A stretch of 64,000 nt of DNA from Pseudomonadota bacterium (lineage in GTDB: Bacteria > Pseudomonadota > Alphaproteobacteria > Rhodospirillales > Magnetospirillaceae): assembly GCA_021781575.1 (NCBI GenBank), contig JAJXWP010000005.1, forward strand, positions 62,001 through 126,000, written 5' to 3'. Numbering within the stretch: position 1 is the stretch's first letter; each line of letters starts with the position of its first letter. The notes below the pieces were generated by a model. That model worked only from the letters and a program-made list of their open reading frames with translations. It was not told the DNA's origin and made no database searches. The position numbers were made by a program, and so were the translations under genes. Positions 4,116 to 16,631 of the stretch are shown here, one piece after another.

Positions 4116-5456
4116 TCACTTCGGCTGACGACCGACGGAAGGTTTCGCAGCAGTTTTAAGCACGGCCTCCGGCGCCGGGGCGGGCCTCGGCGTCCGCGCC
4201 AGCTTGCGTGCCCCGTTCAGCTGTTTGTCGATCTCCGTGGTCATCGCGTTGGAGACGCCAGTGAACGCGGCGAACTCAGGCCAGCGGTCGACGGCGGCTC
4301 TGACGCGATCAACGATCTCCTCTGCCCGCCCCCGGGGCACGCCGACCTCGTCGGCCACGTCGAGGATGTTCGCCATCCCCGGCCTGCGCCCCTCGCCGCC
4401 GATGTCGAGCGCGTGCTCGCCCCCGGGCCCGGCAGAGAACGTGACGTCGTAGGCCGGTGAGACGCTCCACACCCCCGTCTCGGACATCAGGAAGCTGTGG
4501 TTCTTGGTGTGGTCGTCGCGGTTGTGGGCGAAGACGTTGAAGGCCATGCGGGTGAACATCTGCTCGACCGCCGCCTGATCCCTCGTCAGGCTCCTGGTGA
4601 GCTTGAGCAGGGTGGCGTAGCCCATGGACGGGAGCGTGTGGTCGACGTTCAGCAGACCACTGGCAGTGTGCATGTGAACGCGGCGGTTGCCGAGGCGATC
4701 GAACCGCTTGATGCCGAAGTAGCCGGGCCCCTTCGTGGCAGGAAATAGGATGGTGGGAGGCATGTCCACCTCGGCGGTTTTGGCCATCTCCGCGTAGGCG
4801 TGCTCGATGGCGCCGATGTCGAGCGGGTCGCCGACCGCGCGGAACTTGACGATCCAGTGCTCGTGGGCCTCCGGCAGGGCGTCGACGCCGTGGATCAGAC
4901 CGGCGTGGTCGGAGGACAGTCCGACGAGCGCCTTGGGGCGGGCGCCGTGAGGGGGGCCGCCGACCCGGAGCAGTTCGTCGAGCACCGCCTTGGGGCTGTC
5001 GTCCAGCACGCGCTGGGATTCCTCGGCCAGACGGTCGAGGTCGATGGCGCCGCCGTCGGCGGCGGCGAGGGCATGGTGTTCCGGCTTGTAGACGAGCGCG
5101 CCCATGCCGTGGCTCCCCACCCACGCCAGCCGATCCAGTGGTGTCAACTGGCCCGGCTGGATGCCGACGTCGCGCAACTTCCTGTCCATCAGCAGGCGCC
5201 CCCAGCCGTCGGGGAGGCTGTCGTTGAACACCCCGGGCAGGCGCTCGAAGACGCCGGTCGGCCCCTCGACCAGGCCGGGGAAGAGCTTGAGCCGGAACGG
5301 GGAGATTTCCAACCGGGAGGACAGGAACCCCGGGTCGTACTCGAAGTAGACGACCCGGTCGCGCCACGCCAGGCGCCCGACGGGCCTCCCGCCGCCGCCG
5401 AAGTCGATCTCCACCTTCAACTGGGTGATCCGCCTGAACTCCCTCTTCCCTGTCAT
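4116..5456 (-). CDS. HipA-type serine/threonine kinase toxin, intact
   Basis: 446 residues, full length for the family. The N-terminal domain (about 20-125) contains the HipA signature FNDSLPDGWGRLLMDRKLRD. The kinase domain follows, with GARPKALVGL (171-180), the ATP-binding lysine in WIVKF (K204), YFGIKRFDR (246-254), the catalytic loop HNRDDHTKNH (311-320) and Mg-binding PAYD (334-337). All expected catalytic residues are present, so activity is plausible. HipA proteins phosphorylate translation factors such as glutamyl-tRNA synthetase in characterised cases; the target here is unknown. Its ATG overlaps the antitoxin stop by 4 bp. The proline/alanine-rich tail is non-conserved. Confidence 0.87.
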   Translation of the reverse strand: MTGKREFRRITQLKVEIDFGGGGRPVGRLAWRDRVVYFEYDPGFLSSRLEISPFRLKLFPGLVEGPTGVFERLPGVFNDSLPDGWGRLLMDRKLRDVGIQPGQLTPLDRLAWVGSHGMGALVYKPEHHALAAADGGAIDLDRLAEESQRVLDDSPKAVLDELLRVGGPPHGARPKALVGLSSDHAGLIHGVDALPEAHEHWIVKFRAVGDPLDIGAIEHAYAEMAKTAEVDMPPTILFPATKGPGYFGIKRFDRLGNRRVHMHTASGLLNVDHTLPSMGYATLLKLTRSLTRDQAAVEQMFTRMAFNVFAHNRDDHTKNHSFLMSETGVWSVSPAYDVTFSAGPGGEHALDIGGEGRRPGMANILDVADEVGVPRGRAEEIVDRVRAAVDRWPEFAAFTGVSNAMTTEIDKQLNGARKLARTPRPAPAPEAVLKTAAKPSVGRQPK

Positions 5457-5770
5457 TTTCCTCTTCCCCTTCGACGGTGGTGCGTGGTCGGCGCCGACAC
5501 CACCTCGTCCATGGAAGCAAACTTGGGCATGGCGAACAGCCCCTCGAATCCGCCCTCTAGCCGAAGGGCGAAAGCGAGGCGCACCACGACCTCCAGCGAC
5601 GCCGCCCCCTTGGTCTCGAAGCGTTTGAGCGTGCCGTAGCTGACACCGGCGCGTTCCGCCAGCGCCTCCTGGGTCAGGTCGGCGGCCAGTCGCGCAGCCT
5701 TGATCCGCCCGGCCAGCATGCGGCAGATCTCCGTCGGCGACGCCAGTTCTATGGACAACATGTTATCCAT
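5453..5770 (-). CDS. HipB-like Xre-family antitoxin of the intact hip module
   Basis: 105 residues from the ATG at 5770. The HTH occupies about 14-70 (LAGRIKAARLAADLTQEALA, ERAGVSYGTLKRFETKGAAS), followed by VVRLAFALRLEGGFEGLF and a basic tail (HHRRRGRGK). It overlaps the toxin gene by 4 bp, so the pair is translationally coupled. Other in-frame ATGs lie at 5788 and 5761. None has a clear ribosome site; 5770 was chosen because it leaves the upstream palindrome free. It presumably neutralises the toxin and represses the operon. Confidence 0.8.
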   Translation of the reverse strand: MDNMLSIELASPTEICRMLAGRIKAARLAADLTQEALAERAGVSYGTLKRFETKGAASLEVVVRLAFALRLEGGFEGLFAMPKFASMDEVVSAPTTHHRRRGRGK

Positions 5771-5794
5771 ATTATGCCATATTATCATTTAACG

Positions 5795-9353: not shown

Positions 9354-9548
9354 TCAGAGCGGAATGCAGGTGTCGTCCACCGGGCAGACCGACGCGCACT
9401 GCGGCGAATCATGAGCGCCTTCGCACTCCGTGCACTTGTTCGGGTCGATCGCGAACACGTCGCCGGCCATGCTGATGGCTTTCGAGGGGCATTCGAATTC
9501 GCAGGCGCCGCAGGCGGTACAGTTGGCGGCGACGATCTGGTAGGCCAT
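9354..9548 (-). CDS. 2[4Fe-4S] ferredoxin
   Basis: 64 residues with two cysteine clusters. Cluster I is [12 protein letters not shown] at 10-21 (CxxCxxCxxxCP). Cluster II is [18 protein letters not shown] at 38-55, which has eight residues between its second and third cysteines. That long inter-cysteine loop is typical of the FdxN/VnfF-like low-potential ferredoxins of proteobacteria. It is divergent from the NfnAB-like fusion gene, so it is a likely electron partner of that flavoprotein, supplying or receiving low-potential electrons. The ribosome site GGAGAG precedes the ATG. Confidence 0.92.
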
Positions 9549-9858
9549 TGTTCTCTCCTTTTGGGTTGGCCGTTGCGTGCAAAGGACAAAACCGAGTCAC
9601 CCTGCACCACTACATCCTTGGTGGCCGGATAATGCCCTAATGCATAAGCCCATTCCAGTGGAATGGCGACCATCACCGCAACTCCAATGCCTGTTCGCCG
9701 CATCGCGCAACTTTCGCTCGGACACTCAACTACTCACGGCTGAATCACTGGTTAGTCGGACCCTTCGGAGAGGCCTTCGGCCTGCGACATGGATGTTGAA
9801 CGGCCGATCAATGAAGATTAGGGTGCCGTCTCCCCTGGACAGAGCTGAGGAGCATCCG

Positions 9859-12819
9859 ATGTATTCGATCGTCCGTCACGAGACTTTCTCGGATGTCACC
9901 TTTCTCTGGGAAGTTCTTGCCCCCGACGCAGCCCGGGCGGCCCAGCCCGGACACTTCGTCATGGTGCGGCTGCATGATGGAGGGGAACGGATACCGCTGA
10001 CGGTGGCCGATTTCGACCGTGACGCCGGGACCATCACCATGGTCATCCAGGCGTTGGGAAAGACCACGCGCCAGATGCGTGACAGTTATCGCCAGGGCGA
10101 CAGCTTCGATGACTTCGTCGGCCCCCTGGGCCTACCCCAGCATATCGACAAGGTCGGCCATGTCGTCCTGGTCGGCGGCGGCTTGGGCGTGGCGCCGGTA
10201 TTCCCGCAACTGCGGGCATTCAAGGAGGCCGGCAACCGCACCACCAGCATCATGGGGTTCCGCAGCAAGGACCTGGTGTTCTGGGAGGACAAATTCGCCG
10301 GCCACAGCGACAGGCTGATCATCTGCACCGATGACGGCAGCTACGGCCGACCCGGCTTCGTCACTGCGGCGCTGCAGGACGTGCTTGAGACCGACAAGCC
10401 CGACCTGGTGATCGCCATCGGCCCGCTCCCGATGATGCATGCCTGCGCCGATACCACACGGCCTTATGGTGTGAAGACCATGGTCTCACTCAACACCATC
10501 ATGGTCGACGGCACCGGTATGTGCGGCTCCTGCCGCGTCACCGTCGGCGGCGAAGTCAAATTCGCCTGCGTCGAGGGACCCGATTTCGACGGCCATCAGA
10601 TTGATTTCGCGGAACTGCACACCCGCCAGAAGCGATTCAAGCCCCAGGAAACGCAGGCGGTTGAGGACATGGACCACGTCTGCAATCTGGAAAAGGTCCT
10701 GTTTGTCGATGGCAGGCGCACCTACAAGAAGATGTCGACCCTCGAACCGCATCAGGTGCCGATGCCCGAATACGACCCGCATGAACGGGCTCGCAATTTC
10801 AAGGAAGTCAATCTCGGCTATTCGATCAACCACGCCCTGCGCGAAGCCGAACGCTGCATCCAGTGCCACAAGCCGACCTGCATCGCCGGCTGCCCGGTCG
10901 GCATTGATATCCCCCGCTTCATCCGCCACCTGTTGATCCGCGACATCGACGGAGCGCTCGACGCCATTTACGACAACAGCATCTTCCCATCGGTCTGCGG
11001 TCGCGTCTGCCCGCAGGAGACGCAATGCGAGGCGCAATGCGTCATCGCCAAGGGCAAGAAGCTCGAGCCGGTGGCCATCGGCCGCCTCGAGCGCTTCGTC
11101 GGCGACCATGCGCAGCCGCCCAAGGCGACACCGCCGGCCAATGCCGGCCAGCTGGGCCGGGTCGCCATCGTCGGCTCCGGGCCGGCCGGCTTGGCCTGCG
11201 CCGCCGATCTGGCCCGCTTCGGCGCCGCGGTGACGGTCTATGAGGCGCTGCATGTGCTGGGCGGCGTGCTGCAATACGGTATCCCCGCCTTCCGCTTGCC
11301 ACGCCATATCATCGACCGCGAAATCCAGCGGCTGAAGGACATGGGCGTCCGCTTCGAGACCAACAAGGTAATCGGCAAAACCTTCACCATTCCGCAGCTG
11401 ACCGGCAAGATGGGCTTCGACGCGGTGTTCGTCGGTGCCGGCGCCGGCGCTCCCGCCTTCCTGGGGATCCCTGGGGAATTCGCCGGGCAGGTCTATTCGG
11501 CCAATGAATTCCTGACCCGCGTCAACCTGATGGGCGGCGACCAGTTCCCCTATCTCGATACGCCGATCAGTCTTGGCCAAAGCGTCGTGGTGATCGGGGC
11601 CGGCAACACCGCCATGGATTGCCTTCGCGTCGCCAAGCGCCTGGGAGCCCCCGTCGTGCGTTGCGTCTACCGCCGCACCGAGGCCGAAGCGCCGGCCCGG
11701 GTGGAGGAGATCCGCCACGCCAAGGAAGAGGGCATCGACTTCTTCTTCCTGCATTCACCGGTCGAAATCTTCACCGACGAGGCGGGCAATGTGCGCGGCC
11801 TCAAGGTGCAGAAGATGGCCTTGGGCGAGCCTGATGAGAAAGGCCGGCGCAAGCCCCTGCCCCTCGACGAGTTTGTCGAGTTGGATTGCGATACCGTCAT
11901 CTACGCCTTGGGCACCAAGGCCAACCCGATCATCGGGCAGGCCACTCCCGACCTGGCGCTCAACAAGTGGGGCAACATCGTCGCCGACGACAGCACCCAG
12001 GCCACCAACCTGCCCGGCGTCTTCGCCGGAGGCGACATCGTCACCGGAGGCGCCACCGTCATCCTGGCCATGGGTGCCGGCCGCCGGGCCGCCAAGGCGA
12101 TTGCCGCCTACCTGCAGAACGGCAAGTCGAAATGGCCGATTACCGCCGAGGATGCCGGAGCCTTCGTGCCGGCCCGCGCCGGCGGCAACCTCTGCCCGAA
12201 ATGTGGCCGGCCGACGGAAGGCGACGAGGAATACCTGTGCTGCGCCGACGCTACGCTTCAATGGCACTGCGCCGATTGCGGCAAAGTGAGCGAGGGTTTC
12301 GCCTTCCCCTACGGCATGTGCCCGCACTGTGGCGGCCGGCTGCAGGCACGGGCCGACCGCGAGATGAAGGGCGAGGCCGCATTGGACGGATTGCGGACCG
12401 CCTTCGAGATCGAACTGGGCGGGCAGGCTTTCTACCATCGTGCCGCCGCGAGCACCGACGATCCCCAACTGCAGGAGCTGTTCGGCAAGTTGGCGGCCAT
12501 GGAAAAGGAACACATGGATACGCTGTGCCGCCGCTACCATGTGGATGTCCCCCCGCCGTCGGCCGATTTCCGCCTGGACCTGGCGGTGGCGCATGCCGGC
12601 TTCAAGGAGGTTCCGGCCGATGCCGGGGGCCTGTTCCGCACCGCCATCCTGTTCGAGCAGCGCGCTGCCGCCTATTTCGCCGAAAAGAGCGACGAGCAGA
12701 GGAAAGGCACTACCGCCCACCAGCTATACCGCGAGCTGGCCGCCGAGGAGCGCGATCACGCGGCGCTTCTTGCCACCGAGTACGACCGCTGGAAGGCCAA
12801 CAAGCCGGGCATTCTCTGA
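9859..12819 (+). CDS. Fused NfnAB-type NAD(P)H:ferredoxin transhydrogenase with C-terminal zinc ribbons and rubrerythrin-like domain
   Basis: 986 residues from the ATG at 9859, behind GAGGAG; 94 upstream codons in frame are non-conserved. Domain order: (1) about 1-280, an NfnA/SudB-like FAD/NAD-binding reductase with a [2Fe-2S] site at C222, C225, C237 and D217 at the expected extra-ligand spacing. (2) About 300-765, an NfnB/GltD-like half with [4Fe-4S] cysteines C333/C336/C341/C345 and C380/C384/C390/C394, FAD fingerprint VAIVGSGPAGLACA (435 on) and NADP fingerprint VVVIGAGNTAMDC (577 on). (3) Zinc ribbons C779/C782, C804/C807, C821/C824. (4) About 840-975, a ferritin-like four-helix region with two ExxH motifs (EKEH, ERDH). 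NfnAB performs flavin-based electron bifurcation between NADH, NADPH and ferredoxin. The fused diiron domain suggests coupling to peroxide or oxygen protection, which is inference. Confidence 0.9.
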   Translation: MYSIVRHETFSDVTFLWEVLAPDAARAAQPGHFVMVRLHDGGERIPLTVADFDRDAGTITMVIQALGKTTRQMRDSYRQGDSFDDFVGPLGLPQHIDKVGHVVLVGGGLGVAPVFPQLRAFKEAGNRTTSIMGFRSKDLVFWEDKFAGHSDRLIICTDDGSYGRPGFVTAALQDVLETDKPDLVIAIGPLPMMHACADTTRPYGVKTMVSLNTIMVDGTGMCGSCRVTVGGEVKFACVEGPDFDGHQIDFAELHTRQKRFKPQETQAVEDMDHVCNLEKVLFVDGRRTYKKMSTLEPHQVPMPEYDPHERARNFKEVNLGYSINHALREAERCIQCHKPTCIAGCPVGIDIPRFIRHLLIRDIDGALDAIYDNSIFPSVCGRVCPQETQCEAQCVIAKGKKLEPVAIGRLERFVGDHAQPPKATPPANAGQLGRVAIVGSGPAGLACAADLARFGAAVTVYEALHVLGGVLQYGIPAFRLPRHIIDREIQRLKDMGVRFETNKVIGKTFTIPQLTGKMGFDAVFVGAGAGAPAFLGIPGEFAGQVYSANEFLTRVNLMGGDQFPYLDTPISLGQSVVVIGAGNTAMDCLRVAKRLGAPVVRCVYRRTEAEAPARVEEIRHAKEEGIDFFFLHSPVEIFTDEAGNVRGLKVQKMALGEPDEKGRRKPLPLDEFVELDCDTVIYALGTKANPIIGQATPDLALNKWGNIVADDSTQATNLPGVFAGGDIVTGGATVILAMGAGRRAAKAIAAYLQNGKSKWPITAEDAGAFVPARAGGNLCPKCGRPTEGDEEYLCCADATLQWHCADCGKVSEGFAFPYGMCPHCGGRLQARADREMKGEAALDGLRTAFEIELGGQAFYHRAAASTDDPQLQELFGKLAAMEKEHMDTLCRRYHVDVPPPSADFRLDLAVAHAGFKEVPADAGGLFRTAILFEQRAAAYFAEKSDEQRKGTTAHQLYRELAAEERDHAALLATEYDRWKANKPGIL

Positions 12820-16024: not shown

Positions 16025-16303
16025 ATGGACTACGAATGGGACGATGCCAAAGCTGCCGTCAATCTGGCCAAGCACGGGATCGATTTCCTTGATGCCATCG
16101 GCGCGCTGACCGATCCGCATCGGATCGAGGACATCGATGACCGCTTCGCCTACGGTAAGGAGCGCACCCGTACCATCGACATGACCCAAGGTAACGTCCT
16201 GTTCGTCGTCACGACCATGCGCGACGAACATCTGTGCCGCATCATTTCGGCCCGGAGGGCCACACGACATGAGCAAGACCGGTACTACGCGGGTACACAT
16301 TGA
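16025..16303 (+). CDS. brnT: BrnT-family type II toxin
   Basis: 92 residues, MDYEWDDAKAAVNLAKHGID then FLDAIGALTDPHRIEDIDDR. W-D-x-x-K-x-x-x-N-x-x-K-H-G-I-x-F, the central F-A-Y-G-K-E-R and the C-terminal RIISARRATRHEQDRY are the BrnT hallmarks (RelE-like fold RNase that cuts mRNA in the characterised Brucella protein). The residues usually involved in activity are present. The downstream antitoxin start lies 35 bp inside this gene, so translation is coupled. Confidence 0.88.
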   Translation: MDYEWDDAKAAVNLAKHGIDFLDAIGALTDPHRIEDIDDRFAYGKERTRTIDMTQGNVLFVVTTMRDEHLCRIISARRATRHEQDRYYAGTH

Positions 16304-16631
16304 GCCGGGACGGCCGGCGCCCGAAGGCCACACCGACTGGGAGCGGGTGCGCGCCATGACCGATGAGGAGGTGACCGCCGCAGCGCTGTCCGATCCCGAC
16401 GCCCAACCGATGACGGCGGAGCAACTGGCCGGCATGCGCCGGTTGCCCGATATCAAGTCGCTGCGGACCCGCCTCGGCATGACGCAGGAACAGTTTGCCC
16501 GCACCTATCGCTTGCCGCTCGGCACCGTGCGGGACTGGGAACAGGGACGGACCCGGCCCGATGCCCCGGCCCTGGCGTTGTTGGCGGTGATCGACCGTGA
16601 GCCGGAGGCGGCACGCCGCGCGCTCAACTGA
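16269..16631 (+). CDS. HTH-domain antitoxin paired with BrnT
   Basis: 120 residues. The N-terminal third resembles BrnA (DWERVRAMTDEEVTAAALSD PDAQPM), the toxin-binding part. The C-terminal half carries an Xre-type HTH (IKSLRTRLGMTQEQFARTYR, LPLGTVRDWEQGRTRPDAPA) rather than the ribbon-helix-helix of classical BrnA. It therefore probably both neutralises BrnT and represses the operon through the HTH. It overlaps the toxin gene by 35 bp. Confidence 0.82.
   Translation: MSKTGTTRVHIEPGRPAPEGHTDWERVRAMTDEEVTAAALSDPDAQPMTAEQLAGMRRLPDIKSLRTRLGMTQEQFARTYRLPLGTVRDWEQGRTRPDAPALALLAVIDREPEAARRALN

Follow-up and report, generated by a model that had tools for sequence, protein, structure and literature searches.

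A single-chain NfnAB flavoprotein with a rubrerythrin-like diiron tail, perhaps a source of electrons, shielded from oxygen, for nitrogenase and enzymes like it

The fused gene and its Nfn core

The window analysed here, a 64,000-nucleotide stretch of contig JAJXWP010000005.1 from a Magnetospirillaceae bacterium (assembly GCA_021781575.1), carries on its forward strand, at positions 9859..12819, one open reading frame (ORF) for a single chain of 986 amino acids in which library scans found, from the N- to the C-terminus, NfnA, NfnB, an eight-cysteine ribbon and a ferritin-like diiron domain; it is the sole gene of such architecture in the host genome. A probable ribosome-binding site, GAGGAG (9847..9852, forward strand), was read directly from the sequence ahead of the ATG, and the start motif MY(S/P/Q/T)I(V/L) is kept among relatives, while the frame itself is open back to 9577. 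Full-length relatives of the protein are 73-92% identical to it.

Both Nfn subunits lie in one chain, as a first-pass annotation of the bare sequence had claimed: the model PRK12778 spans aa 1-754 at 991 bits (under its cut-off of 1103), and the matches to gltA/TIGR01316 (556, cut-off 472) and PRK06222 (384, cut-off 220) exceed their thresholds. The NCBIfam model NF009413/PRK12775 ("putative trifunctional ... ferritin domain-containing protein") has the same domain order over its full length and aligns model positions 1-1006 to aa 1-986; since its score of 1854.8 bits falls below the curated cut-off of 1895, the protein is no formal member. This end-to-end match nevertheless means that the architecture had already been catalogued, without a function; PRK12775 is an uncharacterised automatic model whose name turned up in no paper of the searchable literature, and a search of that literature for NfnAB fused to rubrerythrin, or for the model name, likewise gave no paper. 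The fusion itself is thus already known as a protein family, and what appears to be new, being undescribed within the searchable literature, is its description as a clade of tailed Nfn enzymes and its linkage to nif operons.

The main survey of Nfn enzymes distinguishes patterns A-D, none with a ferritin-like tail (PMC6405883). Pattern B, which includes AadN of Rhodopseudomonas palustris, likewise has NfnA and NfnB in one chain (PMC6405883, PMC9973337), but no ferritin-like tail has been described for it; AadN is set apart here by its description, not by sequence comparison. A separate 1178-aa ORF (G000:C6:102956-104605, reverse strand, loci L007/L008) matches the NfnB part first and NfnA after it, the reversed order of the Pattern C Nfn of the literature, so that fused Nfn of two kinds may be encoded in this genome.

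The NfnA (NfnS) domain (9859..10683, forward strand, aa 1-275), with FAD/NAD-binding and [2Fe-2S] sites, matched 5jca_S at 322 bits and 4yry_C with a fold Z of 27.1. The NfnB (NfnL) domain (10744..12138, forward strand, aa ~296-760), with two [4Fe-4S] sites, a bifurcating-type FAD site and an NADP(H) site, superimposed on the NfnI subunit 5jca_L with Z 44.4 (rmsd 2.1, 456 residues aligned), compared with Z 37-39 for GltD; these structural matches were obtained with an AlphaFold2 model of the 986-aa protein (pLDDT 79, pTM 0.64). The three Fe-S sites that the first-pass annotation had noted are preserved: alignment against the Nfn of Pyrococcus furiosus and Thermotoga maritima assigned D217, C222, C225 and C237 as ligands of the NfnA [2Fe-2S] cluster, and C333, C336, C341, C345, C380, C384, C390 and C394, together with E411, as ligands of the two NfnB [4Fe-4S] clusters. 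The residues on which bifurcation depends, whose replacement had been named as grounds for abandoning the bifurcating assignment, are also kept. E411 corresponds to P. furiosus E126, the glutamate ligand of the proximal [4Fe-4S] cluster, and R479 and R614 to the arginines R201 and R333 beside the bifurcating FAD; all three are found in 37/37 alignment rows. The Asp/Cys3 set, the Cys and Glu set and both arginines are invariant across the rows with letters, with the exception of one Ser at the Asp position. In P. furiosus, R201 and R333 have been tied to bifurcation, R333 being reportedly conserved only among bifurcating enzymes (PMC12921514), and ligation of the cluster by E126 keeps both electron branches coupled (PMC9503767). 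GltD (6s6s_G), in contrast, has other residues at both arginine positions, and PyrK has Cys where NfnA has Asp (the D217 position). The NAD-site loop, VGGGLGVAP at aa 105 of NfnA, keeps the VGGG of NfnI. Judged by its residues, the Nfn core is of the bifurcating type, with every Fe-S ligand and bifurcation-linked residue retained. It shares all cofactor ligands and bifurcation-linked residues, and a fold similarity of Z 44, with NfnI/NfnAB (P. furiosus 5JCA, T. maritima 4YLF), and differs from NfnI in being a single chain with NfnA first, in its additional ribbon and ferritin-like tail, and in belonging to a deep clade of its own.

A rubrerythrin-like C-terminal tail

Where the first-pass annotation had seen three Cys-pair zinc ribbons, the ribbon (12193..12330, forward strand, aa 779-824) has eight cysteines that are invariant in 18/18 sequences: C779/C782/C794/C795, followed by C804-x2-C807-x13-C821-x2-C824, which has rubredoxin spacing. 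This pattern suggests two Cys4 sites, one of them rubredoxin-spaced, rather than three zinc ribbons; the RUBY_RBDX profile matched weakly (12-16 bits, cut-off 26.5), and aa 789-798 are of low confidence in the AlphaFold2 model.

The ferritin-like four-helix diiron domain (12373..12795, forward strand, aa about 839-979) has the ligands E852, E882, H885, E933, E964 and H967. Their loss on alignment would have undermined the proposed rubrerythrin domain, yet these six residues (E/ExxH/E/ExxH) are invariant in 17-18 of 17-18 sequences, the neighbouring E850 aside, and a tail from an Acidobacteriota genome, 33% identical, keeps both the Cys and the diiron ligands as judged by eye. Pfam PF02915 (rubrerythrin) matched the tail alone at 37.3 bits (cut-off 22.8), its best stretch being one helical hairpin at aa 845-891. 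The model of the tail (pLDDT 79) folds as a ferritin-like bundle that matched bacterioferritin and ferritin with Z 13-14, values only moderately specific for helical bundles, among the matches listed; by sequence and by Foldseek the tail is close to the COG1633-type proteins 2fzf and 2oh3, and there are weak matches to the iron exporter MbfA and to EncB ferritin-like cargo. The structural matches listed for the tail include no PDB rubrerythrin, a negative confined to that listing. A search for the tail on plasmids gave no match.

Classical rubrerythrin, as in the Desulfovibrio vulgaris site, uses a further Glu as ligand, placed three residues C-terminal to the helix-C Glu. The corresponding position 936 is Ala in the tail and in most relatives, and the tail is for this reason named rubrerythrin-like: of the earlier assignment to a rubrerythrin domain with two ExxH motifs, the full six-ligand diiron set stands, and the classical rubrerythrin site does not. 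By its ligand set the tail is rubrerythrin-like with a diiron site of the bacterioferritin/erythrin type, and no classical rubrerythrin. It shares the bundle with E, ExxH, E and ExxH with rubrerythrin, ferriperoxin and COG1633 proteins, and rubrerythrin also has a rubredoxin-like Cys4; the tail differs in that its Cys4 module precedes the bundle, in four further cysteines, in the missing helix-C Glu, and in having an Nfn fused or adjacent to it.

Phylogeny, distribution and gene neighbourhoods

A tree of 43 NfnABs unites the tailed forms in a single clade (support 100/100) from which all of the sampled tail-less NfnABs are excluded. The survey of architectures also recovered split-gene forms, in which a separate tail gene immediately follows the gene for a single-chain NfnAB without a tail (loci L012, L013, L014, L015, L121 and L017); the adjoining tail gene provides a fusion-partner argument for the tail. 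Since split forms (that of L017 and the nif-linked group) branch early within the tailed clade, fusion is probably the derived state, reached more than once or followed by reversals. The distribution is patchy: tail-bearing genomes number 19/317 in the order, 2/337 in the class sample and 2/398 in the phylum sample. Among the Anaeromyxobacteraceae, the fusion was found in 23/24 genomes and nifH in 15/24. Genes of relatives were called with a custom script, using trained codon use for the Anaeromyxobacteraceae.

Six genomes, which represent three families, carry the split pair at the end of a collinear nif cluster, iscA-nifV-nifW-NfnAB-tail, on one strand; in four of the six, those with a long enough retrieved stretch, nifHDKEN-nifX-NifX-associated-fdxIII precedes this run (nif genes were identified by NCBIfam; the NifW matches are under cut-off). 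Gaps are short and the NfnABs of these loci are 77-87% identical to each other, indicating that this gene order has persisted through genuine sequence divergence. This synteny clearly strengthens the earlier suggestion that the enzyme could feed nitrogenase. The fused gene diverges from apbE-rnfABCD in G047 and G1048. In a Rubrivivax metagenome-assembled genome without nifH (L012, 9071-14034), NfnAB and tail are followed in one run by a 1221-aa pyruvate:ferredoxin oxidoreductase (PFOR), a dihydroorotate-dehydrogenase-like gene and a YfhL-type ferredoxin. In G050 (L124:11665-15221) the fused gene is followed by XdhC-like pieces, a MocA-type cytidylyltransferase, a SufS-like desulfurase and a SufU-like scaffold, a molybdenum/Fe-S maturation set that is kept, whole or in part, in the four congeners G050, G051, G052 and G054. 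The common theme of these neighbourhoods is low-potential, oxygen-labile Fe-S/Mo enzymes. The Anaeromyxobacteraceae neighbourhoods of the fusion, when compared, had no shared metabolic genes.

In the window, a 64-aa 2[4Fe-4S] ferredoxin of the YfhL type (9354..9548, reverse strand), the only copy of its type in the genome, is transcribed divergently from the Nfn gene, as the first-pass annotation had observed. It is 64% identical over 58 aa to an FdxN-like ferredoxin (L122:11368-11556) encoded directly after nifB in G379; an FdxN-type ferredoxin is required for full diazotrophy of Rhodobacter capsulatus (PMC10936413). The nifB-nifT stretch of the host's nif cluster contained no YfhL-type ferredoxin gene. 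We infer that the divergent ferredoxin is the partner of the 986-aa enzyme in this host; as a general partner gene it was rejected, since it is a direct neighbour elsewhere only in the congener G006.

The divergent intergenic region (9549..9858, 310 bp) has blocks beside both genes that are conserved with G006, while its middle has diverged between the two. Near the Nfn gene, the block GATGTTGAACGGCCGATCAATGAAGATTAGGG (about 9790-9825, forward strand), which contains the palindrome TTGA-N8-TCAA, has an almost identical counterpart in G006 and is a candidate regulator site; a classical FNR/FixK box is not claimed for the palindrome, as its spacing is wrong. Elsewhere in the window, a HipA-like 446-aa protein with a small helix-turn-helix gene before it (4116-5788, reverse strand) is a probable HipBA-type toxin-antitoxin pair, and two short overlapping genes (16025-16631, forward strand) resemble a BrnT/BrnA toxin-antitoxin pair.

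Proposed function and alternatives

The reading that we tentatively favour, at close to an even chance, is that of a ferredoxin-reducing, bifurcating-type Nfn transhydrogenase with its own rubredoxin-like/ferritin-like diiron module, an O2- or peroxide-handling tail, which would serve nitrogenase and other low-potential enzymes. The analysis itself established the domains, the conserved ligands and bifurcation-specific residues, the single clade, the split-gene partner form, and the conserved linkage to nif, rnf or PFOR genes. Direction of electron flow, identity of the ferredoxin, tail chemistry and coupling of core to tail are what we infer in the following scheme. The NfnB FAD would oxidise NADPH and send one electron through the Asp-ligated [2Fe-2S] cluster and the NfnA FAD to NAD+, and the other along the pair of [4Fe-4S] clusters to a ferredoxin of the 2[4Fe-4S] type, in this host probably the divergent FdxN-like one, which would then reduce nitrogenase and other low-potential enzymes. 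Electrons for the tail, transferred intramolecularly in the fused forms, would enter at the rubredoxin-like Cys4 and continue to the diiron site, where H2O2 or O2 would be reduced, shielding the enzyme as well as its oxygen-sensitive clients. Nfn would in this way be coupled to peroxide or oxygen reduction through its tail, and the self-protection of a bifurcating enzyme in a microaerobe, proposed earlier, is no more than plausible. Of the first interpretation as a whole, the Nfn fusion, the Fe-S sites and the diiron ligands stood; the fusion itself had previously been catalogued.

Several observations weigh against this reading. The diiron set lacks the extra Glu of classical rubrerythrin, and the top fold matches, among those listed, are ferritins. 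In the host genome neither the nif cluster (nifHDK-ENX-V-B, contig C70, L164) nor the rnf cluster (contig C17, L198) adjoins the Nfn gene; the divergent promoter region has no NifA site (TGT-N10-ACA) and no sigma-54 -24/-12 motif. The three nif-linked cases tested group together in one clade (support 91/93), so that the nif synteny may stem from a single linkage event. Finally, nifH scored above cut-off in only 7/11 distinct tail-bearing genomes, and was absent from G557 (100% complete) and from two closed Anaeromyxobacteraceae genomes that have the fusion. An obligatory link between tail and nif, judged by presence and absence, was accordingly rejected; nitrogenase is not the sole client, and the role of the enzyme is wider than nitrogenase.

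The broader occurrence of the fusion relative to nifH in the Anaeromyxobacteraceae, together with the invariant tail ligands, would also fit a general O2/peroxide defence, an unlikely but serious alternative in which the protein is an NAD(P)H-peroxidase or oxidase, the Nfn part merely feeds the rubredoxin-like/diiron tail, and the linkage to nif, rnf and PFOR stems from the protection of oxygen-labile enzymes and not from the supply of electrons. Precedents exist in the FNR-dependent ferriperoxin, a rubrerythrin-like protein that is a working peroxidase (PMC3317640), and in the flavodiiron protein (FDP)-rubredoxin-NROR fusion of Trichomonas, for which self-sufficient O2 reduction has been demonstrated (PMC9364112). 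The latter likewise combines an NAD(P)H flavoprotein, a rubredoxin and a diiron site in one chain, but consists of a flavodiiron protein and NROR instead of Nfn and a ferritin-like domain, and has no ferredoxin branch. An NROR-like flavoprotein would suffice to feed such a tail, yet all residues of the low-potential branch and of bifurcation have been retained, and the gene is linked to ferredoxin-using gene sets.

The bacterioferritin-like ligand set and fold, the weak matches to MbfA and EncB cargo, and neighbours such as SufS/SufU in L124-type loci and iscA-nifV-nifW in nif clusters would be consistent with iron handling, in which the tail, as a ferroxidase or ferric reductase with the flavoprotein as electron source, provides the iron from which Fe-S or nitrogenase cofactors are assembled; the rubredoxin-spaced Cys4 beside the bundle points instead to electron transfer, and the XdhC/MocA neighbours indicate molybdenum enzymes rather than iron storage, leaving this option improbable.

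In FixABCX, quinone as the high-potential acceptor drives ferredoxin reduction. By analogy, the tail itself could be the high-potential acceptor, with the electrons of NADPH split between H2O2 or O2, via the rubredoxin-like and diiron sites, and a nif-type ferredoxin, so that oxygen removal drives uphill ferredoxin reduction; if true, one polypeptide would remove oxygen and make nitrogenase-grade electrons. The completely kept low-potential branch and the covalent tail with its Cys4 relay are compatible with this scheme, and Rub-Bfu (PMC9304861), which differs from the tailed Nfn in its HydBC-type core, its separate gene and its assignment to clade 57, and has no Nfn core, has been predicted to pair a bifurcating core with a rubrerythrin. 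However, as in NfnI, the NAD-site loop is retained, so that NAD+ is probably still the acceptor, and we consider the scheme somewhat less probable again than iron handling. Least probable of all is a non-bifurcating NADPH oxidoreductase (GltD-like or Xfn-like, with another acceptor), to which the NCBIfam family names, such as glutamate synthase or polyprenylphenol hydroxylase, would then come nearer, and which could draw on the finding that Nfn homologues do not all bifurcate with the same substrates (PMC6405883), as R479/R614/E411/D217 fit NfnI and not GltD or PyrK, and NfnI is the top structural match ahead of GltD.

Known low-potential electron routes in diazotrophs are FixABCX, Rnf and PFOR/NifJ. 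Some diazotrophs have been reported without a known ferredoxin- or flavodoxin-reducing route; a mutant form of AadN can feed nitrogenase, and its authors propose Nfn relatives as the missing electron donors (PMC9973337). The source of low-potential electrons in aerobic and microaerobic diazotrophs is an unsolved question, for which an Nfn encoded in a nif operon and equipped with a diiron module presents a concrete candidate for an additional route. On the favoured reading the tailed Nfn would supply electrons to nitrogenase and enzymes like it, perhaps with protection from oxygen, and it would bear on the question of how respiring bacteria sustain a bifurcating chemistry that is sensitive to oxygen.

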